Source of the DNA: Myxococcaceae bacterium
GTDB taxonomy: Bacteria > Myxococcota > Myxococcia > Myxococcales > Myxococcaceae
Reading direction: 5' to 3'
NCBI GenBank assembly: GCA_019694575.1
Contig: JAIBBR010000001.1
Span: 62,001-126,000, forward strand
DNA length: 64,000 bases
The stretch's first letter is position 1, and each line of letters starts with the position of its first letter. Shown here one piece after another: positions 9,895 to 54,697 of the stretch. A program made the position numbers and the translations under genes. The notes under the pieces are model-generated. The model saw only the letters and a program-made list of their open reading frames with translations, made no database searches and had not been told where the DNA came from.

Positions 9895-10011
9895 GGTGCT
9901 GCTGCGTATACACCGGCTCGAAACCCGAGAGCTGAAAGACGCGTCGCTGCTGGCAAGGGGCTTTTGGCTGGTGTATCTACCCCCTCCAGTTTTCTTTTGA
10001 GGAGGGCTCGC

Positions 10012-10296
10012 ATGCAGACCGCAAACTTCGTCAAAATCGTGGCTTTGGGTGGCGCGATACTGGGTGCGCCGGTCGCGTTTGCCTCCAACGATGTGCTGCC
10101 TGACCTGCCCAGCGCGAGTGAGAAATGCGGCTGCAGCGGTGCCAGTGACTGCACCTGCAAGAAGGGGCAATGCAAGTGCCCGAAGTGCGGCAAACACAAC
10201 AAGGCGCGCATGATTGAGACGTTGAAGGGCCAGTCGTCTGACCCCACGCTGCCGAACACCGCGCGGCTCGACGCCACGGCCGGCGTGTTCATTTAG
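10012..10296 (+). CDS. Small secreted Cys-rich (metallothionein-like) protein
   Basis: Protein of 94 residues with a strong ribosome site (GAGGAGG) before ATG 10012. An N-terminal signal peptide is visible: FVKIVALGGAILGAPVAFAS, with cleavage likely after AFA near residue 24. The mature part has a compact cluster of seven Cys within 21 residues (KCGCSGASDCTC, then QCKCPKCGKH) in C-x-C and C-x-x-C spacing, followed by His. This is what is expected of a metal-thiolate binding peptide, such as metallothioneins, but here it would act in the periplasm or outside. The C-terminal 30 residues have no Cys. It does not match the standard bacterial SmtA pattern, so the metallothionein-like label is by composition only. 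Confidence 0.8.
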   Translation: MQTANFVKIVALGGAILGAPVAFASNDVLPDLPSASEKCGCSGASDCTCKKGQCKCPKCGKHNKARMIETLKGQSSDPTLPNTARLDATAGVFI

Positions 10297-10454
10297 GGCC
10301 CGCGTAGGAATAAGGCGGTCGATGATCAGTGCCGAGGCGCCCGGCGGGCAAGACGCGAGGAGGGAGCATACCCGTTGGTACGTGACCGACGAGCAACGAA
10401 GCCCGCCGGGATGGATCGGCGCTGAGGGCGATCGACTTATTCCTTCGCGGGCCC
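10296..10454 (+). ncRNA. Nested-hairpin structured element (candidate non-coding RNA)
   Basis: The stretch folds back on itself almost completely. Outer stems: GGGCCCGCG (10296-10304) with CGCGGGCCC (10446-10454); AGGAATAA (10306-10313) with TTATTCCT (10437-10444); GTCGAT (10318-10323) with ATCGAC (10431-10436). Inner stems: AGTGCCGA with TCGGCGCT (one G-U), and CCCGGCGGGC with GCCCGCCGGG. Between these lies a core with GGGAGCATACCC and GTTGGT...ACCGAC (one G-U). It lies between convergent genes, its first base being the last base of a TAG stop. The outer stems could be a shared terminator and the inner part an inserted structured RNA. The strand is chosen by the core reading and is not certain. 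No open frame fits it. Confidence 0.65.
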
Positions 10455-10467
10455 TTAACCGCCGCTG

Positions 10468-11004
10468 TTACGCGTTACCCACCAACACCACCCAACCGCG
10501 GGCCATCGCCTCGCGGAAGAATTCTGACAACGCGTGCCGTGCGGCGCTGACGTGGTGCTGGCCGGGGTCGCTCGCCCGCTCTTCGCCGACACTTTTGCCG
10601 ACTTCTAATTCAACCGTGCGGCCACAGCGTTCGCAGCGAATCGAAAGAGGGCGCACGTACGCCACGGGCACCGCGAACCGGCTGCCGCAGTCGCACACCC
10701 AAACGCGGGTCAGCTCGCCCGTCGCTTGTTGCCGGGCCAGCGTCGTCAGTTGATCGGCCAACCGCAACAGCGCCGGCAAATCATTGGGAGGCACCGCGAA
10801 GATCTTGTGCTCTTCGCTTTCTTTCTCGATGCGGCGCACCCGTTCGAAGGCTTTTTCTCCACGAAATTCTGCGCCGGCCAACGCTTCGGCCACCAACGCC
10901 GCGGTCAAGGTGGCGGTAGGCAGCAGCAATTCATCAGCGGTGGGCGCCGGCAGCGGGCGCTTGGTTTTGACCAGTCGAAAAGGGGGCATCGCCGAAAACG
11001 TCAT
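10468..11004 (-). CDS. Zinc-ribbon-containing protein of unknown function
   Basis: Protein of 178 residues, cytosolic by appearance. A possible zinc ribbon lies near residues 104-130: CDCGSRF, then CERCGR, separated by about 19 residues with RPLSIRC. The N-terminal 90 residues are helical and charged. I chose the ATG at 11004, which shares its A with the TGA stop of nadA (TGATG), so translation is probably coupled to nadA. Four more in-frame residues upstream lie inside nadA. I do not recognise the family; a role connected to NAD synthesis is only suggested by position. Confidence 0.75.
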   Translation of the reverse strand: MTFSAMPPFRLVKTKRPLPAPTADELLLPTATLTAALVAEALAGAEFRGEKAFERVRRIEKESEEHKIFAVPPNDLPALLRLADQLTTLARQQATGELTRVWVCDCGSRFAVPVAYVRPLSIRCERCGRTVELEVGKSVGEERASDPGQHHVSAARHALSEFFREAMARGWVVLVGNA

Positions 11005-11924
11005 CACTCGCTCCATTCGAGCATGCGTTTCACCGGGGCCAACGCTTTGGCGGCCAAGTCAGCGGGCAGCTCGAGCGCCGGTTGGCGATCACGCATGCAA
11101 AGGTAGAGTTTTTCCATCGTGTTCAGCTTCATGTACGGGCACTCGTTGCAGGCGCAGCCATTGTCGGGTGGAGCGGCGATCAGCGTCTTGCCCGGTGCCT
11201 GCTTCTTCATCTGGTGAAGAATGCCGGCCTCGGTGACGACGATGAATTTTTGCTTCGGGCTTTGTACCACCCGTTCGAGCAACTGCTTGGTCGACCCAAT
11301 GAAGTGCGCGTGGGCCAACACCGCGGCTTCACATTCGGGGTGCGCCACCACTTCAGCGTCGGGGTGCTCGACCATCAACTGCACCAGTTTCTTCTCGCTG
11401 AAAATCTCGTGCACGATGCAGCTGCCCGGCCACAAAATCATTTCACGCCCTGTTTGCTTCGCCACGTAGCGGCCCAGGTGTTGATCAGGCGCGAAGAGAA
11501 TGGGGCGATCTTTCGGCACCCGGTCGACCATCTTCACCGCGTTGCTGCTGGTGCAGATCACGTCGCTCATCGCCTTCACCGCGGCCGACGAATTCACATA
11601 GCTGACCACGAATGCATTGGGGTACTTGGCTTTGAATGCGGCGAAGGCTCCGGGAGGGCACCGGTCTGAAAGCGAGCAGCCAGCCGCTAAGTCAGGCAGC
11701 AGCACCAGCTTGTCGGGGTTCAAAATTTTCGCGGTCTCGGCCATGAAGTGAACGCCGCAGAAGACGATGGTCGACGCCTTGGTCTTGGCCGCCGCCTGGG
11801 CCAGCGCCAAGCTGTCGCCCACGATGTCCGCGATGTCTTGAATCTCACTCTCTTGGTAGTAGTGAGCCAAAATCACCGCGTTCAGCTCGGTTTTGAGCCG
11901 TGCAATTTCTCGCTCGAAGTTCAT
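11004..11924 (-). CDS. nadA: Quinolinate synthase A
   Basis: NadA, 306 residues, the compact form of the family. It condenses iminoaspartate with dihydroxyacetone phosphate to quinolinate in de novo NAD synthesis, using an oxygen-sensitive [4Fe-4S] cluster. Family motifs are clear: [20 protein letters not shown] at residues 20-39, [14 protein letters not shown] (55-68), SNAVKM, and [10 protein letters not shown] near 256. Likely cluster cysteines are Cys83 (AGCSLSD), Cys169 (PGSC) and one of the CACNEC group. The ATG at 11924 is preceded by GAGG at a good distance; a longer start at 11954 is less likely. It is followed by the coupled zinc-ribbon gene and is divergent from the MopE/Gly-rich gene. 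Confidence 0.97.
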
Positions 11925-12016
11925 TTGCCTCAACTCATTATCTCTTTGGCGCATCGAGATGCCAACGCCTTTGGCACCGTGCTAAGTCGTTGCTGCTCGG
12001 GTAAGCCGTCGCCTGC

Positions 12017-14572
12017 GTGAAAAGCAAAGGGCCTTTGAAAGCGCGCCGCATCGACACTTTTTGGGCAATTGCCGCCCTGTGGGCGTGCGTTTCTGCGTGC
12101 AATTGCAGCAAGCCTCCACCGGTCGCCCAGACGCCCAAGGAGGAAGGCGAAGCCTGCGTCGATGACACCGACTGTGCTTCGGGCTTGTGCGATGTGTTAC
12201 CGGGGGCTGTCGACGCCACCTGTTTGCGCCGTTGCGGTGGAGCGTGCCGGCCCAACGAAGTATGCACCGCCGTGGCCGCCGGCCGTTACGCCTGTGTGCC
12301 CGAGCGAGCAGGTTTGTGCGAGGCGTGCGCGAAAGATACTGACTGCCCGTACCCCGCTGACCGCTGCATCGCGCTGGGAGGGGTGAGCTTTTGCGGCCGT
12401 GACTGCTCAGGCGACGGCGTGTGCCCCGACTCGTACACCTGCGATTTTGCCTTCGACGGGCAAGGCAACCAAGTCGGCCCGCAGTGCCAACCCACCAGCG
12501 GCTCGTGTGGCTGCACCATGGCCAACCTTGGCCAGACGGTGCCGTGCGAGCGCCGCAACGGCTTCGGCAGCTGCATGGGCACCAGGGTGTGTGGCGATGA
12601 CGGGCTCGGTGCTTGTAACGCGCAAATTCCCGCTGAAGAAGCGTGCAACAACCTCGATGACGACTGCAATGGCACCATCGACGACAACATGGGCCTGTTG
12701 AGCTGCGGCGTGGGTGCCTGCCGGCGAGAGATCGCCGCATGTTTCGAAGGCCGTTTGCAGACCTGTATGCCCGGCGTGCCTACCGCCGAGGTGTGCGACG
12801 AGCTCGACAACGACTGCAACAACGTGGTCGACGACGGCTTCGACAAAATGAACTCGGTGAGCCATTGCGGCACTTGCACCACGGTGTGCAACACCACCAA
12901 CGGCACGCCGAAGTGCGTCAGCGGCCAGTGCGACATTGCCGCCTGCAACATGGGCTTCGACAACTGCAACACACAAATCGCCGATGGCTGCGAAACGAAT
13001 TTGCTCGTTGATCAACTCAACTGCGGAGGTTGTGGCAATCGCTGCACGGCGCCGCATGCCGCGGGCAGCTGCAACGCGGGTCGCTGCGAGTTTCAGTGCG
13101 AAAGTGGTTGGGTGAACCTCGACGGCGATTTCGCCAATGGGTGCGAGTATGCCTGCACCCCCAGCAGCTCAGTTGATTTGCCCGACTTGAGCTTCACCGA
13201 CGCGAACTGCGACGGCATCGACGGCGAGGTGACAAACGGCATTTTCGTTTCACCCGTGGGTAACGACACCCAGCCCGGTACGCGCGCGGCGCCCAAGCGC
13301 ACCTTGGCGGCGGGCGTGGCGGCCCAAGTGGCGCAGAACAAGCGCGACCTCTACGTGTCGCAGGGAGCGTGGACTGAAGTGTTGCGGCCCGCGTCGGGCA
13401 AGGGTGTTTACGGTGGTTACAGCGCCCTTGATTGGTCGCGCAACAGCACCCAGCTCACTACGCTGACGGGTGTCAACGCCCCGCTGCAGATTGAAATGGT
13501 GAGCAATGTCACCGTGCAGTTATTGCAGGTGATGGGTGGCACTCCGGCGGCGGCGGGTGAAAGCGCCTATGGCCTCAAGGTGCTCAACGCGTCGCAGGTA
13601 AAGCTCGAAGCGGTTGAAATTCGCGCGGGCAACGGCACTTCAGGTGCAGCAGGCGTGATGGGCGGGGCCGGAGCAGCCGGTGGCGCCGGTTCGGTGGGAC
13701 AACCTGGCTGTGAAGACTCTACCGGTTTGTGCTCGACATGCGGCGTGCCTCAACCAGGGGCGGGCGGCACGAGCAGCTGTGGTCGCCCGGGTGGCTCGGG
13801 TGGCGGTGTGGGCAAAGAGAGCAATAAAGGCTGGCCAGGTTCAGCAGGCGCCGGTGGCACGCCGGGGGGTGATGGCGTGCCGTGGGGTTGGGGCAACGCG
13901 ATTCCCGGTGCGCCATATGTCGGCCAAAACGGAAGCCCAGGTGCGGTGGGCATGAGCGGCATGCACGCGGGTGGTTTGGGCACGTTTTCGGTCGCCGGCT
14001 ACGTGGCTGCGTTGGGCACGCATGGTGGTGACGGCACCCCGGGCAACGGAGGCGGAGGAGGTGGCGGTGGCGGCGGCGGCGAAGTGACGTGCAACAGCTA
14101 CGGTGGAGGCGGAGCAGGCGGCGGCGGAGCGGGTTGCGGTGGTTTGGGTGGCAAGCGCGCTGACAGCGGGGGCGCGTCTATTGGCGTGTTTCTCTACAAT
14201 TCAACGGTGACGGCTGATCAGCTGGTGATTGTCACCGGCAATGGCGGCAATGGCGGCAACGGTGGAGCAGGTGGTCCAGGCGGCGCGGGTGGCCCGGGGG
14301 GTGTGGCGTCGAACGGCGCGGGCAACGAATACGGCGGCGGCGACGAGCAAGACGACGGCAGCAATGGCGCGCGCGGTGGCAATGGTGGAGCGGGTGGCGC
14401 GGGCGGGCCCGGCGGCGCAGGCGGAGGTGGGCCGGTGATTGGCGTGGTGAAAGCCGGCGTTTCGAGTTGGTCGGCGATCAACGTGATGGTGACGTTGGGT
14501 ACCTCAGGCATGGGCGGCACCGCGGGCGGCTCGTCAGCGGCGGCTGGTGCGAGTCGGCTCGAGTACCCATAG
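12017..14572 (+). CDS. Large Cys-rich lipoprotein with MopE-type motifs and Gly-rich C-terminal half
   Basis: Secreted protein of 851 residues starting at a GTG. The signal ends in a lipobox-like VSAC (Cys near residue 28). Residues 40-390 are Cys-rich with two MopE-type metal-binding motifs, EACNNLDDDCNGTIDD and EVCDELDNDCNNVVDD; related motifs occur in the copper-binding MopE of methanotrophs and in many myxobacterial surface proteins. About 410-540 looks like a beta-helix-type segment (NGIFVSPVGNDTQPGT). The last 300 residues are dominated by Gly with Ala, Pro and Asn, interrupted by short hydrophobic strands, like a Gly-rich beta-helix or polyglycine fold. It is probably on the cell surface. 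A bacterial PGRS-like protein is another description. Function unknown. Confidence 0.85.
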   Translation: MKSKGPLKARRIDTFWAIAALWACVSACNCSKPPPVAQTPKEEGEACVDDTDCASGLCDVLPGAVDATCLRRCGGACRPNEVCTAVAAGRYACVPERAGLCEACAKDTDCPYPADRCIALGGVSFCGRDCSGDGVCPDSYTCDFAFDGQGNQVGPQCQPTSGSCGCTMANLGQTVPCERRNGFGSCMGTRVCGDDGLGACNAQIPAEEACNNLDDDCNGTIDDNMGLLSCGVGACRREIAACFEGRLQTCMPGVPTAEVCDELDNDCNNVVDDGFDKMNSVSHCGTCTTVCNTTNGTPKCVSGQCDIAACNMGFDNCNTQIADGCETNLLVDQLNCGGCGNRCTAPHAAGSCNAGRCEFQCESGWVNLDGDFANGCEYACTPSSSVDLPDLSFTDANCDGIDGEVTNGIFVSPVGNDTQPGTRAAPKRTLAAGVAAQVAQNKRDLYVSQGAWTEVLRPASGKGVYGGYSALDWSRNSTQLTTLTGVNAPLQIEMVSNVTVQLLQVMGGTPAAAGESAYGLKVLNASQVKLEAVEIRAGNGTSGAAGVMGGAGAAGGAGSVGQPGCEDSTGLCSTCGVPQPGAGGTSSCGRPGGSGGGVGKESNKGWPGSAGAGGTPGGDGVPWGWGNAIPGAPYVGQNGSPGAVGMSGMHAGGLGTFSVAGYVAALGTHGGDGTPGNGGGGGGGGGGGEVTCNSYGGGGAGGGGAGCGGLGGKRADSGGASIGVFLYNSTVTADQLVIVTGNGGNGGNGGAGGPGGAGGPGGVASNGAGNEYGGGDEQDDGSNGARGGNGGAGGAGGPGGAGGGGPVIGVVKAGVSSWSAINVMVTLGTSGMGGTAGGSSAAAGASRLEYP

Positions 14573-42644: not shown

Positions 42645-45600
42645 ATGCAAAAGTCTTTTCAAGTCACCGCGTTGCTGACTGCCGCCTTTGCTCTCTCTGT
42701 CGCAGGTTGCCGGTGCGACGAGCCGGGGCCCACCGTCAAGCCTGGTGAGTTGTCGATTGTGTTTGACGTCGACGGTGTTTCTACCTCTGGTGTCGACGCG
42801 GTCTACGACTTTGGCCAGGTGTACATGGGCACGCAGAAGAAGCTTGATTTGACGATCAAGAACACCGGCACAGGTTCGCTCTTCATCGACAAAGTCGAGA
42901 AAGACAGCGGCGACGCGGTGGCGATCGGTGAAGGTTTTAAAGAGATGAACCCGTTCTTCATCATCGACTACACAACCGTGACCGAAGTGCGCTCGGGTGA
43001 AGTCGCCAAGTTCTCGATGACCTTCGACGCGCTGCCTGACCCCGATGAAAACGTGAAGACGGTCAAGCACCTCTCGAAGCTTCGGGTGCTCACCAACAAC
43101 GCCGGCGGTGTGGTGGGAGCGGTGACTTTGAAGGGCGAAGCCGTGTCGGGGGTGTGCACCTTGCCTCGCACCATCGACTTCGGAGCTGTGGCGCGGGGCC
43201 AATCGTTCAACCAGTCGGTCACGCTGACCAACGCCAGCCCGCTCGCCACCACGGCCTTCGTGGGTGAAATTACCTCTAACGGCACACGCTCCCTGAACTT
43301 TACGTTCGCGCCTGAATCGTCGCGTGGCGAAGTGGCGTTGGCTGCGGGCCAGAGCAAAAAGGTGACCATCACTTTCTCGCCCACTGAAATCGACACTTAC
43401 GTGGCGATCGTGAAAATGCGGGCGGCCGCTGAATGTCCGGAGCAGAACGTTCGGCTGATCGGCAACGGCGTCGACACCGTACTTTCCTGGAGCCCTGGCA
43501 AAGCTTTCGATTCGATGATCGCCGGCACGCCGGTCGATTTTGGCTACGTGACGCCGAACATTCCCAACGGCACCGAGGGCTATTTGACCTTCGCCAACTT
43601 GGGGTTTTCGCCCGTGGCGCTTTCGTCGATGACCGCGTCATCGGTTGAATTCAAAGTGATCGACGGCGCGACGATGGCGGGTGCGGCCACGGTTCCCCCG
43701 AGCACCCGAAATGCCAACGGCGACATTGTGCCAGGCACGTTGACGCTCACCATGTCGTTCAAGCCGACGCTGATTGGCCCGCGCACCGGGGTATTGCGCA
43801 CCAATACTGACGTTGCACGTCAGCCGATGATCGCTCCCGCGCTCAAAGGTTACGGCGGTGGCCCCGACATCGACGTGAAGCCGGCGCCGGTGTTGAGCTT
43901 CGGCCGCGTCGGTTTCGTGGCAGGAGCGGCCACGCCCACTTTTGTGACGCGCAAGCTCACCATTCAGAACGCGGGAGCGGCGCCCACGCCTCCTGATCAG
44001 AAAGCCAACTTGCACCTGGGTGTCGCTGGCATGGGCACGCAGTACTTCACCGTCGAAGCGAAGCAGGGCGACGCTTCTGAAATTTGCATTGGCGACCCCA
44101 CCACCTGCGACGGCTCACTGCCGCTGACGGGGCCGGGTGCTTATGACCCGATGCAAGGCATCGAAGCGCGCGCGGGCCGTTCAATGCTCGACGTAGCGGT
44201 GCGCATCACGCCCAAGAGCATTGGCACCAAAGAGTTCGTGGTCACCGTTTATTCCAACGACCCTGACGAACCCGAAGTGAAGATCACCGTGCGGGCTGAA
44301 GCGGTGCTTTACCCCCCGTGCCGCTTCTCGCTGGCGCCGGCGGCGTTGAACTTCGGCTTGGTCACCCCGCCTGACTACAAAGACTTGAACTTCGTACTCA
44401 AGAACCTGGGCCAGCAGCCTGAAGAGGTGTGCTTGCTCTCGAACCTCGACCTGGCCATCGGCTCTGACCCCGTCTTCACGCTGCCGGCCGGGCCAATCAC
44501 CGACAAAGAATTGATGCCCAATGAGGCCATCACCGTCACGGTGCGCGCTTGGCCCCAAGGCACGTCGGGTACCACTCCGGCGCAGGTGATGGGAGCGGTG
44601 CGACTCAACATTTCGTCTGACGTGACACCCGAAAAAGACGTGCCGTTGAACGCGGCGATCGCCACCGGCTGCCTGACCATTGCTCCCCACGATCTCGACT
44701 TCGGCACGGTGAAGAAAGACTGCAACTCGTTCACCCGTCAGTTCGCGGTTTACAATACGTGCGACACCAATGTGACGGTGCAAAGCTTTCAAATGGTAGC
44801 TCCCGCGGGTGAGCCGGCGGGTGGCCCCAACTGCCCCGGAACCATGTCGTGCCCCGAGTTCATCTTGGTCAGTTCGGCGGGCATTTCACCGGGAACGGTC
44901 ATTACGCCCGCCAACAGCACGCCCAACAGCTTTTCGGTGAAGTACCACCCGATCAACTACGGCCCTGACAATGGCGCCTTCTTGTTGAAGGTGACCCAGT
45001 CGGGGCAAATTGTCGACTACCTGGTGACGCTGCGCGGTAACGGCGACACCATGGGCATCAACACCGACACCTTCAAGCAAGACACCAAGCCCAAAGCCGA
45101 CATTTTGCTGGTGATTGACGATTCATGCTCGATGGACGACAAGCAAAACGCGCTCTCGCAAAACTTCGACGCATTCATCAAATATGCCTCGAGCGCGCAG
45201 GTCGACTATCACATTGGTGTCACCACCACTGACATGGGCAACTATGGAGGCCGCATTCTCGGTGACGCCAGCAACCCCAAAGTGCTCACGCCGACCACGC
45301 CTGACGTCGAGAACAAGTTTCGCGCCAAGGTGAAGGTGGGTATCGGAGGCGGCACCGAAGAGTCGGCGGCTCCGTCAGTGGCCGCTTTGACGGCACCGCT
45401 GATTACCGCCGACAACCAGGGCCTGTTGCGGCCCGACGCTTTTCTCGCGGTGGTGGTGGTGACAGACGCCGGCGACCAATCGGCCTTGGCGACCAGCTTC
45501 TACCAAAATGCCCTGCTCAACATTAAGGGCCTGCAGCGGGCTTCGCAGTTTTCGTACAACGTGATTGGCCCCTTCGCTCCCACTCCGGCGGGGGCCTGCA

Positions 45601-45944
45601 CGTACGATGACTTTACTGACCCTTCGAAGCACCTGGTGTTGGTGCAAGCAACCAACGGCGTGAAAGAAGAGATCTGCACGCCTGACTGGGCCAAATCGCT
45701 AGAACAGATTGGCAAGAACGCGTTCGGTTACCGCACCAACTTCTTTCTCACGGCGCGCCCAGACACCACCACCGTTCCCATCGAGGTCAAGGTCGACGGG
45801 CAAAAGCTTGACCCCGCTGACACCAGTGGCGCCAAAGTGTGGGTCTACGACTCGGCCGCGAACTCGGTGAACTTCGAGCCGTTGTTCGTACCTGAGCCGG
45901 GCAGAACCTTGACCATCACGTACCAAGTGGCCTGCATGCCGTGA
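42645..45944 (+). CDS. Surface lipoprotein with Hydin-type (choice-of-anchor D) repeats and a VWA domain
   Basis: Lipoprotein of 1099 residues, lipobox LSVAGC with Cys22, ribosome site AAAGG before ATG. The body has several ASPM/SPD-2/Hydin-type beta domains, each beginning with a F/L-x-FG-x-V strand: VYDFGQVYMGTQKKLDLTIKN, IDFGAVARGQSF, LSFGRVGFV, LNFGLVTPP, LDFGTVKKD. Near residue 820 a von Willebrand A-like domain starts, with a MIDAS pattern DDSCS (ADILLVIDDSCSMDD) and a later VVVVTDAGDQ. VWA domains bind partners through metal. First gene of the operon; a long surface adhesin or scaffold is likely. Hydin repeats in bacteria are otherwise of unknown ligand. Confidence 0.92.
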   Translation: MQKSFQVTALLTAAFALSVAGCRCDEPGPTVKPGELSIVFDVDGVSTSGVDAVYDFGQVYMGTQKKLDLTIKNTGTGSLFIDKVEKDSGDAVAIGEGFKEMNPFFIIDYTTVTEVRSGEVAKFSMTFDALPDPDENVKTVKHLSKLRVLTNNAGGVVGAVTLKGEAVSGVCTLPRTIDFGAVARGQSFNQSVTLTNASPLATTAFVGEITSNGTRSLNFTFAPESSRGEVALAAGQSKKVTITFSPTEIDTYVAIVKMRAAAECPEQNVRLIGNGVDTVLSWSPGKAFDSMIAGTPVDFGYVTPNIPNGTEGYLTFANLGFSPVALSSMTASSVEFKVIDGATMAGAATVPPSTRNANGDIVPGTLTLTMSFKPTLIGPRTGVLRTNTDVARQPMIAPALKGYGGGPDIDVKPAPVLSFGRVGFVAGAATPTFVTRKLTIQNAGAAPTPPDQKANLHLGVAGMGTQYFTVEAKQGDASEICIGDPTTCDGSLPLTGPGAYDPMQGIEARAGRSMLDVAVRITPKSIGTKEFVVTVYSNDPDEPEVKITVRAEAVLYPPCRFSLAPAALNFGLVTPPDYKDLNFVLKNLGQQPEEVCLLSNLDLAIGSDPVFTLPAGPITDKELMPNEAITVTVRAWPQGTSGTTPAQVMGAVRLNISSDVTPEKDVPLNAAIATGCLTIAPHDLDFGTVKKDCNSFTRQFAVYNTCDTNVTVQSFQMVAPAGEPAGGPNCPGTMSCPEFILVSSAGISPGTVITPANSTPNSFSVKYHPINYGPDNGAFLLKVTQSGQIVDYLVTLRGNGDTMGINTDTFKQDTKPKADILLVIDDSCSMDDKQNALSQNFDAFIKYASSAQVDYHIGVTTTDMGNYGGRILGDASNPKVLTPTTPDVENKFRAKVKVGIGGGTEESAAPSVAALTAPLITADNQGLLRPDAFLAVVVVTDAGDQSALATSFYQNALLNIKGLQRASQFSYNVIGPFAPTPAGACTYDDFTDPSKHLVLVQATNGVKEEICTPDWAKSLEQIGKNAFGYRTNFFLTARPDTTTVPIEVKVDGQKLDPADTSGAKVWVYDSAANSVNFEPLFVPEPGRTLTITYQVACMP

Positions 45945-46003: not shown

Positions 46004-49000
46004 ATGAAGACCCGTTTTCTAAAGAGCGCCTTGGCGCTGGCGGTGTTTGGGGCGGCGGCGGCTCAGGCGCAGATGATTTCGCAGATCTCTCAAACATACG
46101 TGCCGATTTCAGGTGGCACGGTGGTGAACGCCAGTCAATTTGTGCCGCGCGATACTTACCCAGGCATTGACGAAGGCTATTTCGCGCTGAATTTAGGCTT
46201 CACGTTCCCTTTTTACGGTAACAACTACAGCACTGCCTACATCGACTCGAATGGCTTCATCACCTTCGGCAGCCCCTGTACCGACCCGAGCTCGTGCTTG
46301 GTGACCCGCCGCATTCCTCAGGCGGCTTCGACATTTCACAACATTTTGGCGCCTTGGTTCGCCGACATGGACGGAGCGACAACGGGCCGCGTCACTTATA
46401 AGTTGTCGGCCAACCAAGCTGAAATCGAGTGGTCCAATTGGGAAGAGTGGGGTAGCTTTGGCTACGACCTGACCATGAAGGTGATTCTCACCTCGTCGGG
46501 CATGATTCAGATTCACTACGGCAGCCTCGATTTTCCCAGCGCGACGGGCTCACGCTCGAGCGCCGGTTTAGAAAACGCCGACGGCACGCAAGGCGTGGCG
46601 ATTTTGGCGTGCAGTGCCACCGCGGGCTTGTGCTCCCCCAGCGATTGGCCGGCCAACACGTTGTTCACCATTGGCCGCCCCAATCAGGCTGACTTGTTGG
46701 TGCCTTCGGTGACTATTTCAAACTTGGTGTCGAATATGGGGCACGTCACCTTCAACTTCGCGGGCACGATTGAGAATTACGGCCTCACCGCGGCCAACAA
46801 CTTCGACTGGAAAGTCTATTTGTCGACTGATCAGACGCTGAGCATGGACGACGTGTTGGTGTATTCGTCGACCGCGCCCGCGTCGTTGGCCGCCAGCAGC
46901 AGTATTTCGGTCAGCGGCGCTGCCGCCACGCCTGGCACGATACCCACCGGGCAATATTACGTGCTGATTCAGGCCGACAGCGCCAACACCGTCAACATGG
47001 AGGCGTCGGAGCTGAACAACGTGGGCAGCACGCAGGTGCCCTTCATTCAAGGCCTCGACCTGGTGGCGTCAACGGTGTCGGGCCCGTCGCTGAGCGGCCC
47101 GGGCAACAACATGACCACGCACGTGAAGTTCTTTAACCAGGGGGCTGACCCGGCGGGTGTCGTCACCTACGAAATTCTGCTTTCGAGCGACAACACGTAC
47201 AGCACCAACGACTACGTTCTTTACACTGGCACCAAGTCGTTGAGCGGGGGCGAGACAGTTGATCAAGACGTGACGTTCAGCGTGCCCTCGAGCGTGCCGG
47301 GCGGCGAGTTCTTTTATTTGTTGCGCATCGACCCACAGAACATTCGCACTGAAGCGAACGAAATGAACAACGTGGTGGCGTCGACGGCGAAGATCACCAT
47401 GCAGCAGGCCGAGCTGGTGAACTTAGGCGTCAGTCTGCTCGACGGCGTCACCGGAGCGCCGACCAACGTGGCCAACTTGGGTCAGCTGGTGCAAATGTCG
47501 GTGCGCATGCAGAACACCGGTGGTGCCGACGCCAAGAACTTCAGAGTGGTGGCGGGGGTTTCGACCGACGGGCAATTTTCACTGCTCTTTGACACCAGGG
47601 TGCACGAGTTCACGGTGGCGTCGCTGGCGGCGGGCGAGACCCGTACCGAGACGTTCAGCTTTACGTTGCCGCTCAATGATCGCAACGGGGCGCCTTTCAC
47701 CACCGGTAACTACTTCATGTTCGCCGCGCTCGACTGGACTGGCGTGGTGAATGAGGTGAACGAGCAGAACAACAACCTCGCGGTGCCTGGCTATGTGTTG
47801 CTGCGTTCGCCGGCTCCTGATTTGACGGTAACCCGGCTCGAAATTCCCGCCAGCGCCGCGGTGGGTGAAACCGTGCCTGTTTACCGCACGATTAAAAACG
47901 TGGGCAATGTCACCGCGCCCGAAGCGAAATACCGGTTCGTGTTGTCTGCCAACCCGATCATCACCGCTGACGATCTGCCGCTGACCATTCTCGGCAACAA
48001 TGGAGGTACCGCGTCGTACGGCTTGGTGACACTGGGCATTGGCCAGAGCGACACCACCACTGAATTGGTTCGTCTGCCGTCGCAAATGACGCCGGGCACC
48101 TATTACGTCGGCTGCCTGGTCGACACCGATGGCACCGTTGCCGAGCTCGATGAGCAGAACAATGCCTGGGCGGGCAACCAAGTAAATGTGTCGGCTTCGA
48201 GCCTGCGCGTGTCAACGCAGCAGTTGGCTGACGCCATGGTCGACCGGCCCTATGCTTTTCGGTTGGTGGCAATGGGCGAGCAAGGCCCCTCGACGTGGAC
48301 CCTCGAATCAGGAGCGGGCGATTTACCAACTGGGCTTACGCTGTCTTCTGAAGGCTTGCTGACCGGCACGCCGACGATGACCGGTGTTTATGGCTTTAAC
48401 GTCGTGCTTCAGAACGCCAGCCGCAGTACCACCGCCCGCCTGCTGCTGCGCGTGTTGCCGCCGAGCGCCGAGGTAGAGGTGACCACGGTGGCCGTGCCTC
48501 CCGTGGTGAATTCCCAGGTGGTGGCTTATTCAGTGGCGCTGGGCGCGGCGGGCGGTGTGAGGCCGTACAAGTGGAAATTGGCGAGTGGCAATTTGCCGCT
48601 CGGGCTCACCTTGTCTGAAGACGGCGTGGTGGGAGGCAGTCCGCGCTCGGGCCAAGCCGAAGGCGTGTTTCGCGTGTCAGTCGAAGTGAAAGACGCGCTC
48701 GGCTCGAAGGCCCGACGCGAGCTCAACTTTCGTTTGGTGGCACCGGGGTCAATCATCTTTGGCAACCCGGTGGTACCTGATGGCTTGGTAAATGGTGACT
48801 ACCTGGCTGACATTGTGGTGCGCAACGCCGATGGCAGTGCGTTGGCCAAGCCGCTGAGTTGGTCTCTGGTCGGTGGCGCTTTACCCGACGGTTTGGCGCT
48901 CACGGTAGAAGCTGACGTGGCGCTGCTTTCGGGCAAGCCGTTGGTGGCCGGCACCTTTCAGTTCTCGCTGCAGGTAGAAGACGCCAAGGGCCGCTCTGTC

Positions 49001-52000
49001 ACCGCCGACTTTGTGATGACGGTGCACCCGGCGCGCTTCAAAATCGTGGCGCTCAACATGCCGACGCGTGTGCACCCGGCAGAATCTGTCGACTTCAGTC
49101 TTTCGGCCGGAGCCAACGTGTTGGCGCAGTTCTCGGTCTTTGCCGGCAGCCTTCCTAAGGGGTTGACAGTGGGAGCTGATGGGCATGTCACGGGCACCGT
49201 GGCCGATGAAAATTCTGAAGGGACCTTCAGCTTCGTGATTGAAGCACGCGACGCCGCGGGGGCGTCGGGCCTGGGTGCCTTTTCTCTCGAAGTGGAGCGT
49301 GATGTGACAAAGGCGGGTTGCAGCACCACCGGAGGCGGCTTGGGAGTGGGGCTTTTCGGTCTGCTGCTCTCGATGGCGCGGCGCCGGCGGGCACGTCACT
49401 TTGCGTTGGCAGCGTCAGCGGCGGTGGTGTTGCCGCTCGTAGCGATGGCGCAAGCGACGGGTTACCAGTTGGCGGGGCCGTTCACGGCCTCCTTCGTGTC
49501 GATTGGCACTACCGGCGCGGTGGTGCCGGGCATCACCAGTTTTAGCGGTGGCACGGTCAATTTGCCCTTTGGCTTCTCGTTCTATGGGCAGTCGACGATG
49601 AGCATTGGCGTGTCGCCCTATGGCTATCTTTACTGGGCAGGAGACGACGTCTCGGCGAACAATATCGGCATACCCCACAACGACTCGTCGACGTTCTCGG
49701 CCCCGCAGACTTTCATTGCCCCCTGGTGGGACAGCTACAGCAGCATTGGCACGGCGCCTTCGTCGATTCGCTTTCAAGTGCGCGGCGCGGCGCCTCAGCG
49801 TGAAGCGGTGATCGAATGGGTGAACATGCAGCCCCTCGGCTCGAGCACCCGCATCAGCTTTCAGGCCAGCCTCTTCGAAGGCACCAATGCCATTCGCTTC
49901 TCGTACGGCACCACCGCGCCCCAAGCAAGCAGCGCTTCGGTCGGCATTCAACGCGCCATCAACGAAGGTGTCTCTGGGTTGAGCTGCACGACGACCGTGG
50001 CGGGCAATTGCGGTGCGCTCAACTGGCCGGCGGGTCAGGCGCTTGAATTCTTTTTGCCACCCGACCTGTCGATGGGCGTGGTCTCAGGCGACCAAGCGGC
50101 ATATTCCGGCGTCAACTACCGGGCGACGGCGGTGGTGCGTAACCAAGGTGGCCACAAGGCCACCAATGTCAGCGTGCGTTTTTACCTGTCGACAAACCCC
50201 ACGTTAGAGGTGAGCGATATTCTTCTCGGCGACGCCATGTCGGTCGACGTAGAGCCTTACGCGCAAGTGACGGCGTCGATGATCGCACCGGTGCCCAACA
50301 CGGTCATGCAGGGCACGTACTTTTTGCTAGCGCAGGTTGACCCCGACAATTTGATCGCTGAGCAATCTGAGTCGAATAACTTTGGCTCGCCAGCGCAGAT
50401 CTCAGTCAATGCTCCTGCGCCTGACTTGTTGGTCGCCAGTGTCTCTGGGCCAGCGGCGACGGGCCCCGAAGGCATGGTGACGGTGTCTCGCACCTTGGCC
50501 AACTACGGCAACGCGGCGGCAGGCCCGTTCAAGTACACCTACTATTTGTCAGACAACGACGTGGTCACCGTGTCAGACACGGCGATCAGCCCGGTGAAAG
50601 CGCTGGGGGGCTTGGCTGCCAATGCCACCGACACGGGCATGGACACCCTGGCCTTGCCAGCGGGCTTGAGCGTCGGCCGCTATTGGTTGGGCGTGTGCGT
50701 CAACTATGACCCCACCGCCGTAACGGGTTTTGGCATCGACGAAATTAGCCGCGTCAACAATTGCACCACTGCCACGACGCCGATCATCATCTCGCGTGGC
50801 GAATTGTTGGTGCTCACCAACAGCTTGCCGGGCGCCAGTCAGTTCGCTCCCTACAGCATGCACCTGGCGGCAAGTGGCGGTAACGGTCAGTACAGCTGGT
50901 CATTGGCGGGGGGAGAATTGCCTGTCGGCATGACGCTGTCGTCGACGGGTGACTTGTCGGGCAGCCCGGCGCAGGCCAAGACATATGGCTTCTCAGTCAA
51001 GGTGACGAGTGGCGGCGTCGAAGCCACTGCTGAGCTCAGTCTGGCGGTGTCGAGCGGTAGCTTGCCATTGGCGGTTGTCGACCAGGTGTTGCCATCGGCT
51101 GAATTCTCGCGTGCCTATTCAACGCGGTTGATTGCCGTGGGAGGCAAACCGACTTACCGCTGGCAGTTGAAAGACGGCGCCAAGCTACCCGAGGGCTTGG
51201 CGCTTGCGACCGATGGCTTGGTCGAAGGCCGGGCTTCGGCGTCGGGCCAGTTCGACTTCGCGGTGACGGTGAAAGACACCGCGGGCATCGAGTCGAGCAA
51301 GGAACTCTCGATTCGAGTGGTTGAACCCTCGTCGTTGCACGTCGCGACTTCGCGGCTGCCGGTGGGCTCGGTGAAGCAGCAGTACAGCCACAAATTGCAG
51401 GCGGTGGGTGGCAAGCAACCATACACCTGGTCGGTGACCCGCGTTCAGCGCGAGGCCGAAAACCCCACTGAAGCGCCTGGTAAACCGCTCGAGACTTTTC
51501 CCGAGGGGTTTGGGTTGTCGATTGAAGCCCGGGCCAACAACGAGGCATTCTTAGCGGGTGTGCCGTTGATGGCCGGCCTGTACCGCGTCGCTTTGAAGGT
51601 GAAAGACGCGACCGGGGCTGAAGATTCGACCACCGTGTTGTTGCAGGTGTCTTACGACGAAGGTCTCGCCATCGTCACCACCGAGCTCCCTGATGCCTTC
51701 GTCGACCGCGGCTACGAAGCTGCATTGACGGTGAACTTGAAAGACGCCACCGGCCTCAAATTTTCGACGCCGTGTGTGCAACAACCGGTGGTCAACCACA
51801 TCGAGCAGTTCGAATGTGCCGAACAAGACGCGAAGCAGCCACTGCCCCCCGGGCTGACGCTCGACGAGACGACGGGCAAGTTGTCGGGTACGCCCACTGC
51901 GCAGACCTTCGTCAAAAGCCCCAAAGGTGACATTGAACCCGTGGTGTACAGCTTCTTGGTTGGCGTGACTGACTCGCTGGGCCGGCAAGACCTGCGCGGT

Positions 52001-52141
52001 CTGTCGATTCGTGTTCGCCCTGACTACAAAGCGGCAGGCGGGTGTGGCTGTGGCGTATTTGAGCCGTCGGCGCTCGGGTTGTTGGCTGCTTTGGGCTTGA
52101 TGCTCCGTAACCGCAAACGAAGGAACGCCGCACATGTCTAG
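46004..52141 (+). CDS. 2045-residue surface protein: two CARDB/Ig proteins fused through an internal sorting signal
   Basis: Signal peptide KTRFLKSALALAVFGAAAA at the N-terminus. Half one: a nidogen-like beta domain (about 25-225), four CARDB domains (about 230-730), and four putative Ig (He_PIG) domains (about 735-1105). At Cys1106 a MYXO-CTERM-like signal follows, then a hydrophobic stretch and Arg1126-1129. Directly afterwards comes a second signal-peptide-like helix, 1133-1151, ending AMAQA, and half two repeats the layout: beta domain (1150-1350), two CARDB (from about 1352 and 1472), Ig domains (about 1600-2005) and a terminal MYXO-CTERM (Cys2014, Cys2016, then LLAALGLML and RNRKRR). 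No stop intervenes. An internal ATG at 49373 could also start half two alone. The start at 46004 is preferred to a GTG at 45941. Confidence 0.93.
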   Translation: MKTRFLKSALALAVFGAAAAQAQMISQISQTYVPISGGTVVNASQFVPRDTYPGIDEGYFALNLGFTFPFYGNNYSTAYIDSNGFITFGSPCTDPSSCLVTRRIPQAASTFHNILAPWFADMDGATTGRVTYKLSANQAEIEWSNWEEWGSFGYDLTMKVILTSSGMIQIHYGSLDFPSATGSRSSAGLENADGTQGVAILACSATAGLCSPSDWPANTLFTIGRPNQADLLVPSVTISNLVSNMGHVTFNFAGTIENYGLTAANNFDWKVYLSTDQTLSMDDVLVYSSTAPASLAASSSISVSGAAATPGTIPTGQYYVLIQADSANTVNMEASELNNVGSTQVPFIQGLDLVASTVSGPSLSGPGNNMTTHVKFFNQGADPAGVVTYEILLSSDNTYSTNDYVLYTGTKSLSGGETVDQDVTFSVPSSVPGGEFFYLLRIDPQNIRTEANEMNNVVASTAKITMQQAELVNLGVSLLDGVTGAPTNVANLGQLVQMSVRMQNTGGADAKNFRVVAGVSTDGQFSLLFDTRVHEFTVASLAAGETRTETFSFTLPLNDRNGAPFTTGNYFMFAALDWTGVVNEVNEQNNNLAVPGYVLLRSPAPDLTVTRLEIPASAAVGETVPVYRTIKNVGNVTAPEAKYRFVLSANPIITADDLPLTILGNNGGTASYGLVTLGIGQSDTTTELVRLPSQMTPGTYYVGCLVDTDGTVAELDEQNNAWAGNQVNVSASSLRVSTQQLADAMVDRPYAFRLVAMGEQGPSTWTLESGAGDLPTGLTLSSEGLLTGTPTMTGVYGFNVVLQNASRSTTARLLLRVLPPSAEVEVTTVAVPPVVNSQVVAYSVALGAAGGVRPYKWKLASGNLPLGLTLSEDGVVGGSPRSGQAEGVFRVSVEVKDALGSKARRELNFRLVAPGSIIFGNPVVPDGLVNGDYLADIVVRNADGSALAKPLSWSLVGGALPDGLALTVEADVALLSGKPLVAGTFQFSLQVEDAKGRSVTADFVMTVHPARFKIVALNMPTRVHPAESVDFSLSAGANVLAQFSVFAGSLPKGLTVGADGHVTGTVADENSEGTFSFVIEARDAAGASGLGAFSLEVERDVTKAGCSTTGGGLGVGLFGLLLSMARRRRARHFALAASAAVVLPLVAMAQATGYQLAGPFTASFVSIGTTGAVVPGITSFSGGTVNLPFGFSFYGQSTMSIGVSPYGYLYWAGDDVSANNIGIPHNDSSTFSAPQTFIAPWWDSYSSIGTAPSSIRFQVRGAAPQREAVIEWVNMQPLGSSTRISFQASLFEGTNAIRFSYGTTAPQASSASVGIQRAINEGVSGLSCTTTVAGNCGALNWPAGQALEFFLPPDLSMGVVSGDQAAYSGVNYRATAVVRNQGGHKATNVSVRFYLSTNPTLEVSDILLGDAMSVDVEPYAQVTASMIAPVPNTVMQGTYFLLAQVDPDNLIAEQSESNNFGSPAQISVNAPAPDLLVASVSGPAATGPEGMVTVSRTLANYGNAAAGPFKYTYYLSDNDVVTVSDTAISPVKALGGLAANATDTGMDTLALPAGLSVGRYWLGVCVNYDPTAVTGFGIDEISRVNNCTTATTPIIISRGELLVLTNSLPGASQFAPYSMHLAASGGNGQYSWSLAGGELPVGMTLSSTGDLSGSPAQAKTYGFSVKVTSGGVEATAELSLAVSSGSLPLAVVDQVLPSAEFSRAYSTRLIAVGGKPTYRWQLKDGAKLPEGLALATDGLVEGRASASGQFDFAVTVKDTAGIESSKELSIRVVEPSSLHVATSRLPVGSVKQQYSHKLQAVGGKQPYTWSVTRVQREAENPTEAPGKPLETFPEGFGLSIEARANNEAFLAGVPLMAGLYRVALKVKDATGAEDSTTVLLQVSYDEGLAIVTTELPDAFVDRGYEAALTVNLKDATGLKFSTPCVQQPVVNHIEQFECAEQDAKQPLPPGLTLDETTGKLSGTPTAQTFVKSPKGDIEPVVYSFLVGVTDSLGRQDLRGLSIRVRPDYKAAGGCGCGVFEPSALGLLAALGLMLRNRKRRNAAHV
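49319..49457 (+). other. Internal MYXO-CTERM-like signal merging into a second signal peptide
   Basis: Residues 1106-1151 of the surface protein. AGCSTTGG is the Cys motif, then GVGLFGLLLSM (membrane), RRRRARH (cytosolic arginine tail) and FALAASAAVVLPLVAMAQA (second hydrophobic region with an AxA-type cleavage site). Topology works out: out-in through the first, in-out through the second. ATG 49373 lies inside, between the two. Confidence 0.8.
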
Positions 52142-53498
52142 TCTGACGAGTTCGTTTTCCGCACGGCGTCTTTCTGTTCTCGTTGCAGTGAGCGCAGCCT
52201 TCGGTTTCGCGTTCGGCGTGGGGTGCAGCGGCGCCCGGAATGTTTGCCAAGATCGCAACGTCAAGTGTGACAACCCCCTGGTGTGCGACCCCGACGACGG
52301 CAAATGCAAGTGCGGTGGTCGGGGCGGGGTAGAATGCCAGCAAGACTTCGTCTGCAACCCTGACTCGAATACCTGTCAGTCGACGCGCTGCGCTGGCATC
52401 AATTGCGCGAGCAAGCCCGGCACCAGCTGCGACGTGTTGACCGGCGAGTGCAAGTGCGGTGGCACCGGCGGTCTGCTGTGCAAAGACGACGAAGTCTGCA
52501 GCCCCAACGCGAGAAAATGCAAGCCGGCCGTGTCGTGTAACGACGTGGCGTGCCCCACAAATCAGACCTGCGAAACCACCACCGGTAAGTGCCTCTGCGG
52601 CACGGTTGCCTGCGCCGACTCAGAGACCTGCTCGGTAGGGCAAGACAACGCCAAAACCTGCGTGCCTGACCGGTGCTCGACGACGACTTGCTTGGGCAGC
52701 ACCACGTGTGACAGCAGCGACGGTTTCTGCAAGTGCAATGGCGTGCCGTGCTCGACGGGTGAAGCGTGCCAGTGCCCCATGGGCACCGACGGCGGCTGTG
52801 CTGATACGGCGAAGGTGTGTCGCCCCAGCAATGCTTGCCAAGGCGTTACTTGCGCTGCCACCAGCAACACATTGTGCGACCCCGTCGATGGCCTGTGCAA
52901 ATGCGGAGGCCCGGGCGGCCCCGCGTGCGGCGCGCAACAGATTTGTTCGTTGGGCCCTCCGCTGCAGTGCCAAGGGGGCCAGCAGTGTGTGAACCCCGAC
53001 GGCGGCGCGAAAATGTGCGCTGGCGGCACCAGCTGTGACCCTGAAGATGGCAAGTGCAAGTGTGGTGGCCGTGGCGGGGCGGTGTGCAACGACGCGATGG
53101 GCGACAACCCGGCCGACGTGTGCGTGCTCAACACTTCACAGCAGTCGTGCCGGCGACCGTGTGATCCCCGCAGCCCTGACTGCCCCAACGGCACTTACTG
53201 CTTCTTCGACACCGTGGCTGCGACGCCGACCGCCTATTGCGCGCCTCCTTCTGACACCCGTCTCGAAGGCCAAGACTGCTTGAATGCCACTGCCTGTTTT
53301 GACGCTCCCGACGCAGGCTCAGCTCAACCGCGCGCGCTGCACTGCGCCGGCTTGGCGATGGGCCAACGCGGCTTCTGTTACGCGTACTGTGACGTGACGG
53401 CAGGCATGCAGGGTTGCGTTCAGTTTCCCAAGCCGCAGTTGTGCCTGCAGATAGCCGGAGCGCCCATGGGCTTTGGTTACTGCCAACCGCAGAACTAA
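52134..53498 (+). CDS. Cys-rich repeat lipoprotein
   Basis: Protein of 454 residues, a signal with SVLVAVSAAFGFAFGVGC (Cys31, lipobox-like). The mature part is built from about eight short repeats with a CDPDDGKCKCGGRGG core, each of 40-50 residues, rich in paired Cys and resembling EGF- or notch-like disulfide knots. They alternate with less conserved spacers. A few Ala/Ser segments near the C-terminus contain DAPDAGSAQ. It starts 8 bases inside the end of the previous gene, so it is translationally coupled to the fused surface protein, and is probably part of the same surface assembly. A hairpin terminator follows. Function unknown. Confidence 0.88.
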   Translation: MSSLTSSFSARRLSVLVAVSAAFGFAFGVGCSGARNVCQDRNVKCDNPLVCDPDDGKCKCGGRGGVECQQDFVCNPDSNTCQSTRCAGINCASKPGTSCDVLTGECKCGGTGGLLCKDDEVCSPNARKCKPAVSCNDVACPTNQTCETTTGKCLCGTVACADSETCSVGQDNAKTCVPDRCSTTTCLGSTTCDSSDGFCKCNGVPCSTGEACQCPMGTDGGCADTAKVCRPSNACQGVTCAATSNTLCDPVDGLCKCGGPGGPACGAQQICSLGPPLQCQGGQQCVNPDGGAKMCAGGTSCDPEDGKCKCGGRGGAVCNDAMGDNPADVCVLNTSQQSCRRPCDPRSPDCPNGTYCFFDTVAATPTAYCAPPSDTRLEGQDCLNATACFDAPDAGSAQPRALHCAGLAMGQRGFCYAYCDVTAGMQGCVQFPKPQLCLQIAGAPMGFGYCQPQN

Positions 53499-53557: not shown

Positions 53558-54697
53558 ATGCCGCATTTCTTCACCGAAGAGCATGAAGCCTTTCGCAAGA
53601 GCGTGCGCAACTGGGTCGAGAAGGAGCTCGCTCCCCACGCGCTCGAATGGGACCGGGCGGGTATTTTTCCCAGAGAGATTTTCAAGCAGGCGGGTGAGCT
53701 TGGCTTTTTGGGCATTCACCATGACCCTGCGTACGGCGGCAGTGGCCTCGACTATTGGTATGTGACGGCGTTTTGCGAAGAGCTGGTGCGCAGCCGCAAC
53801 GCGGGGGTGAACATGGCGCTCTTGGTGCAAAGCCAAATGGCCACGCCGATCATCAACGACATCGGCACCGACGAGCAGAAGCGCGAGTTTTTGGCTCCGG
53901 CGCTGGCGGGCGAAAAGATTGCTGCGTTGGGCGTCAGCGAACCGGGCGCTGGCTCTGATGTGGCGGGCATTAAAACCACTGCCAAACGGGTGGGTGATGA
54001 CTACGTCATCAACGGCTCAAAAATGTGGATCACCAACGGCACCCGCGCCGACTTCATTACCCTGGCGGTGCGCACCGGGAGCGAAGGTTTCGGCGGCGTG
54101 TCGTTGCTCACTTTTCCCACTGACGTGAAGGGCTTTGGCGTCAGCAAGAAGCTCGACAAAGTGGGCAACCTTTCGTCAGACACCGCGATTCTTTATTTCG
54201 AGGACTGCAAGGTGCCGGTGCGGTACCTGCTCGGTGAAGAGAACGAAGGCTTTTACCACGTGATGGTCAACTTTCAGGGAGAACGGCTGGTCGCTGCTTT
54301 GCTCGCCACCGCAACGATGGACCTGATGCTGCAAGACGCGCTGCAGTACGGCAACGAGCGGCAAGCCTTCGGTAAACCGCTGAACAAGTTTCAGGTGTGG
54401 CGCCACAAGTTCGTCGAGCATTTGACCTCGCTCGAGGCGGCGAAACGGCTCGCCTACCACGCGGTCGAGCTCTTCGATGGCAAGGAGAACCCAGTGAAAG
54501 AGATTTCAATGGCCAAGCTCTTCGCCGGCGACTTGGCGCAACGCGTGGCATACGACTGCCAGCAATTTTATGGCGGCATGGGGTACATCGAAGAGACGCA
54601 CGTGGCGCGCGCGTGGCGTGACGTGCGGCTGCTCACCATTGGCGGTGGCACGTCAGAAGTGATGAAAGAAATCATCAGCAAGCTGGTCGGCTTGTAA
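53558..54697 (+). CDS. Acyl-CoA dehydrogenase
   Basis: FAD-dependent acyl-CoA dehydrogenase of 379 residues; first step of beta-oxidation, making trans-2-enoyl-CoA. Motifs: GVSEPGAGSD (125-134, FAD/substrate), KMWITNG, and the C-terminal GGGTSEVMKEI. The position usually occupied by Glu in short- and medium-chain enzymes (YEGTSE) is Gly here. The alternative catalytic base of long-chain and isovaleryl-CoA dehydrogenases lies in a GERLV segment, and Glu242 is present in QGERLV. So a long-chain or branched-chain enzyme is likely. Electron acceptor would be electron-transfer flavoprotein, not seen here. Confidence 0.95.
   Translation: MPHFFTEEHEAFRKSVRNWVEKELAPHALEWDRAGIFPREIFKQAGELGFLGIHHDPAYGGSGLDYWYVTAFCEELVRSRNAGVNMALLVQSQMATPIINDIGTDEQKREFLAPALAGEKIAALGVSEPGAGSDVAGIKTTAKRVGDDYVINGSKMWITNGTRADFITLAVRTGSEGFGGVSLLTFPTDVKGFGVSKKLDKVGNLSSDTAILYFEDCKVPVRYLLGEENEGFYHVMVNFQGERLVAALLATATMDLMLQDALQYGNERQAFGKPLNKFQVWRHKFVEHLTSLEAAKRLAYHAVELFDGKENPVKEISMAKLFAGDLAQRVAYDCQQFYGGMGYIEETHVARAWRDVRLLTIGGGTSEVMKEIISKLVGL

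Follow-up and report, generated by a model that had tools for sequence, protein, structure and literature searches.

The window analysed here, a 64,000-nucleotide stretch of DNA from a Myxococcaceae bacterium, carries on its forward strand a frame of 2,045 codons without a stop (46004-52141), whose two halves each resemble a surface protein. The frame and its neighbours comprise the following features:

42645-45944, + strand: syntenic upstream gene, HYDIN/ASH-type Ig domains with a lipoprotein-like start
46004-46069, + strand: predicted N-terminal signal peptide MKTRFLKSALALAVFGAAAAQA, followed by Q (from the sequence); AGAGG lies about 10 bases upstream of ATG 46004
46070-49321, + strand: putative N-half surface protein (beta-domain, CARDB and He_PIG Ig; Pfam), ending at Cys1106 (codon 49319-49321), which is invariant in orthologues
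49316-49396, + strand: internal MYXO-CTERM sorting signal, comprising a GCS motif, a hydrophobic stretch and RRRRAR (TIGR03901)
49379-49450, + strand: internal signal peptide RRRRARHFALAASAAVVLPLVAMA, with a predicted signal peptidase I cut between AMA and Q (14 orthologues)
49451-52045, + strand: putative C-half surface protein, a paralogue of the N-half (beta-domain, CARDB and He_PIG Ig; Pfam, BLASTP), ending at Cys2014
52037-52138, + strand: C-terminal tripartite sorting signal GCGCGVFEPSALGLLAALGLMLRNRKRRNAAHV (from the sequence; PEP-CTERM match below cut-off)
52134-53498, + strand: downstream Cys-rich lipoprotein gene in another frame; its ATG and the C-half stop overlap by 8 bases
53558-54697, + strand: acyl-CoA dehydrogenase-like gene; a marker of the syntenic neighbourhood that lies outside the mechanism discussed below

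The two halves are homologous (BLASTP 194 bits, 30% identity over 611 aa) and both contain the beta-domain, CARDB and He_PIG Ig domains, with Pfam E-values of 2.8e-39 for CARDB and 1.1e-32 for He_PIG in the N-half. The initial annotation, which had described both halves as repeating the same domains and each ending in a sorting signal, is therefore borne out for the domains and for the internal signal, which scores 21.1 bits with TIGR03901, the curated model for MYXO-CTERM (cut-off 20; match at G000:C75:111316-111390, approximately window positions 49316-49390). It does not hold to the same standard for the C-terminal signal, which reaches 14.9 bits with PEP-CTERM against a cut-off of 16, lies below the curated cut-offs and is without a listed TIGR03901 match. 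The C-termini of the orthologues are clear MYXO-CTERM-like signals.

Rather than standing at the C-terminus of the chain, the internal MYXO-CTERM is followed by 939 residues after Cys1106. These begin with a hydrophobic stretch, the arginine cluster RRRRAR (residues 1126-1131) and a second hydrophobic stretch that ends in AMA, with QA immediately beyond the predicted cut. Residues 1126-1149 of the 2,045, well away from the chain N-terminus, fit the pattern of a Sec signal peptide cut by signal peptidase I (positive start, hydrophobic core, small residue at -3, Ala at -1), and the positive charge at its start is supplied by the arginine tail that closes the MYXO-CTERM. The genome also encodes the myxosortase MrtX (L092:1063-1818; NF040593, 311 bits against a cut-off of 180). 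A structure model of residues 980-1350 places an Ig-like domain, two helices and a beta-domain in succession, with low confidence across the joint, so that it does not prove a hairpin, and Foldseek searches that took in the joint region returned weak adhesin and cadherin-like matches only.

The joint between the halves is conserved well beyond this genome. A search of 40 relatives gave full-length matches of up to 51% identity in which the joint is open, the full-length orthologues of the chain lying at 44-51% identity, and the succession of GCS, hydrophobic stretch, arginines, hydrophobic stretch and AxA runs throughout the aligned relatives. With a profile of the joint (A1, E <= 4.8e-13), a stop-free joint at or near full length was found in 28 of the 145 genomes of the order, a count that includes the window's own genome, spread over families f1, f2, f3, f4 and f9 and many genera. 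Thirteen named Myxococcaceae, Archangium and Myxococcales records carry a concordant joint, and Myxococcus genomes also stand among the named records that bear it. The initial description of a Cys motif, membrane stretch, arginines and second hydrophobic stretch within one frame is thus upheld by the open frame, the TIGR03901 match and the 28 genomes. It had also reckoned with relatives that might show a stop and a gap at this point; we looked for orthologues with a stop at the joint and found none, the joint being in frame instead. Single genes do occur, both N-half-like (L042, L044, L204, L205) and, in G028, as three tandem, more loosely homologous genes with gaps between them.

Across 14 aligned orthologues the invariant columns of the joint are Cys1106, Ser1107, Ala1149 and Gln1150. 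The joint signal peptide has Ala at -1, Gln at +1 and a small residue at -3 in all 14, and Pro at -6 in 13, while the hydrophobic cores drift. The joint is under purifying selection: dN/dS is 0.13-0.52 in pairs and 0.41 when pooled in the core, and third codon positions are the commonest place of codon changes. The invariant Cys-Ser and Ala-Gln are predicted to be two cut sites, and because the invariant residues sit precisely there while the cores drift, cutting of the chain is what we would predict.

Most of the relatives read share the gene order of HYDIN/ASH-type gene, polyprotein, Cys-rich lipoprotein and acyl-CoA dehydrogenase-like gene. In G023 the HYDIN/ASH-type gene is present twice in tandem (L045:5099-8305 and 9949-13293). 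At the next boundary, the C-half of most relatives ends a few residues past its arginines and the lipoprotein has a separate start. This boundary is also fused in frame in two other families, where a MYXO-CTERM runs into a lipoprotein signal (L041:5303-12904, ...IRRRKLAQVTVALAFIATLGTGC; L049, 8542-11382 on its reverse complement, ...ARRRARRAAALFAAMMVAAGC), both being fusions of a C-half with the Cys-rich lipoprotein. A three-protein chain with the lipoprotein last is found in G024; in the corresponding contig of G026 the first and second parts are separated by a run of N.

The window comes from a draft genome of 220 contigs, and an assembly or sequencing error could in principle have joined two genes; this is ruled out by the recurrence of an identical kind of stop-free joint in 28 genomes of many genera, with orthologues that are full-length. 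A different question is whether ribosomes read through the joint or start anew inside the frame, in which case the in-frame joint would be incidental. The initial annotation had offered ATG 49373 as a separate start for the C-half, and this codon does begin MARRRRARHFALAASAAVVLPLVAMA, a good signal peptide. Furthermore, some ATG, GTG or TTG lies within 14 codons of the last arginine in 35 of 49 joints of all types. However, the other 14 have none within that distance, 8 of the 49 have none from the Cys to the last arginine, and L010, L011, L013 and L023 lack any such codon between the Cys and the end of the arginine cluster. Where a start codon is present at the joint, neither its position nor its type is conserved. 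ATG 49373 itself is among the codons that are not conserved, and no ribosome-binding sequence precedes it, whereas AGAGG precedes ATG 46004 and AAGGA precedes ATG 52134. A GTG at Cys+9 in the window does have GGAGG upstream, which makes minor internal initiation possible in this one species, but that codon is not conserved either. An internal start would also leave unexplained why stops never appear at the joint yet are kept at the next boundary. We therefore abandon ATG 49373 as a start and consider internal initiation in general very unlikely; that the frame is translated as one chain is close to certain.

Given one chain, it may be either cut or left whole. An uncut chain would be a two-span inner-membrane protein with two arms outside. 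An uncut anchor, however, would not need an invariant Cys-Ser and Ala-Gln, a small residue at -3 or a Pro at -6, and similarly built joints stand before lipoproteins and OmpA-type parts, both of which should need to be released. We regard the whole chain as unlikely. The earlier proposal, that one arginine tail serves both an exit signal and the signal peptide after it in a chain cut in two, is favored by the in-frame conservation, the invariant predicted cut sites and the MrtX gene. The locus is likely to encode a surface polyprotein, in which a single chain would enter the membrane as a hairpin and be cut by myxosortase and signal peptidase into two surface proteins. In this model, one ribosome would produce one chain. 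Export would begin with the N-half, directed by the N-terminal signal peptide, until the first hydrophobic stretch, within the internal MYXO-CTERM, halted it and left the arginine cluster in the cytoplasm. There the cluster would double as the positive start of the second signal peptide and so lead to export of the C-half. The resulting chain would form a two-helix hairpin in the inner membrane with both halves outside. MrtX would cut at Cys1106, after lipidation as proposed in PMC11980579, and signal peptidase I after AMA1149, releasing a short hairpin. The two resulting proteins would be equal in amount, would each bear a sorting tag and would presumably be destined for the cell surface.

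A similar arrangement appears to reach far beyond this family of chains. A generic joint profile (A3), built from 49 joints, gave full-coverage, stop-free matches (E < 1e-7) in at least 89 of the order's 145 genomes, and it matched in other classes of the phylum as well; nine outside genomes gave no match at E <= 1e-4, an empty answer that alone is weak. Most downstream parts in the examples read have the beginning and end of an OmpA-type protein, and each of the four such parts scanned matched OmpA. To function, such a part should have to leave the inner membrane, and a cut would therefore be required. It seems likely that polyproteins are a means by which much of the Myxococcota produces sets of envelope proteins. 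In the compound joint used, one arginine cluster would end a myxosortase signal and begin the next signal peptide, of Sec or lipoprotein type; myxosortase together with signal peptidase I or II would then separate two or even three surface proteins in equal amounts.

The window's own genome has a second joint, L145 (G000:C147:1374-5729, - strand), in which MopE-type metal-binding repeats and a MYXO-CTERM are fused in frame to the lipoprotein signal of a VWA protein. Stop-free matches to it that cover almost all of the query occur in G005, G001 and G016, and joints of this type end in LTAC and LSGC in L227 and L228. GTG codons lie near the L145 joint in this species, where internal initiation is possible. 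Short versions, in which a MYXO-CTERM is followed at once by a signal peptide and then by a small exported second part, are seen in L137 (a matrixin-type protease) and L150 (no known family), and a different, 883-residue frame from another class of the phylum (L220, in G182) also has a joint of MYXO-CTERM plus signal peptide.

On this reading the joint would be a conserved bacterial form of polyprotein with a clear grammar, widespread in a phylum known for social behavior and predation. It predicts paired surface proteins in equal amounts as well as new myxosortase substrates, and it calls for caution, as automatic annotation takes such chains for single giant proteins. Viruses offer familiar examples of polyproteins cut at membrane signals; few are known from bacteria, and a literature search for bacterial polyproteins that contain internal signal peptides brought up nothing relevant. 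In Bradyrhizobium, the fbcH cytochrome b/c1 precursor is cleaved at an internal signal sequence, although it is not known to carry a sorting signal and its products are not known as surface proteins.

One close likeness is to the MYXO-CTERM/MrtX pathway (TIGR03901, NF040593; PMC11980579), with which the locus shares the Cys motif, membrane stretch, arginine cluster and MrtX, and from which it differs in that the signal stands mid-chain and leads directly into a signal peptide. The polyprotein model is directly testable, since an mrtX-deleted strain of Myxococcus xanthus and a cleavage assay in E. coli are already available, according to the same paper. The TraA/TraB gene pair, as presented there, likewise sets a MYXO-CTERM protein directly before its partner, but as overlapping separate genes rather than one frame. 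The paper also reports one internal MYXO-CTERM, in the atypical M. xanthus protein MXAN_5598, for which it suggests a possible gene fusion and proposes processing of the N-terminal part; we found no mention in the accessible text of the paper of a signal peptide in the joint, of its conservation or of other families, which Haft 2024 may mention. Outer membrane vesicles have been found to contain MXAN_5598 (PMC4158809), and the gene for this protein adjoins ftsZ. L218:3226-11241 and L219:7801-16302 each join a giant adhesin-like protein to an OmpA-type protein through the same double-signal joint, its signal peptide ending in ASAQ or AHAQ, and adjoin an ftsZ-like gene recognized by its GGGTGTG motif; they are likely orthologues of MXAN_5598. 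The chain described here resembles MXAN_5598 in holding an internal MYXO-CTERM within one frame. The second part of MXAN_5598, however, is a beta-barrel with OmpA domains, whereas here CARDB and He_PIG follow the internal MYXO-CTERM, in what appears to be a paralogous surface protein with a sorting tag of its own.
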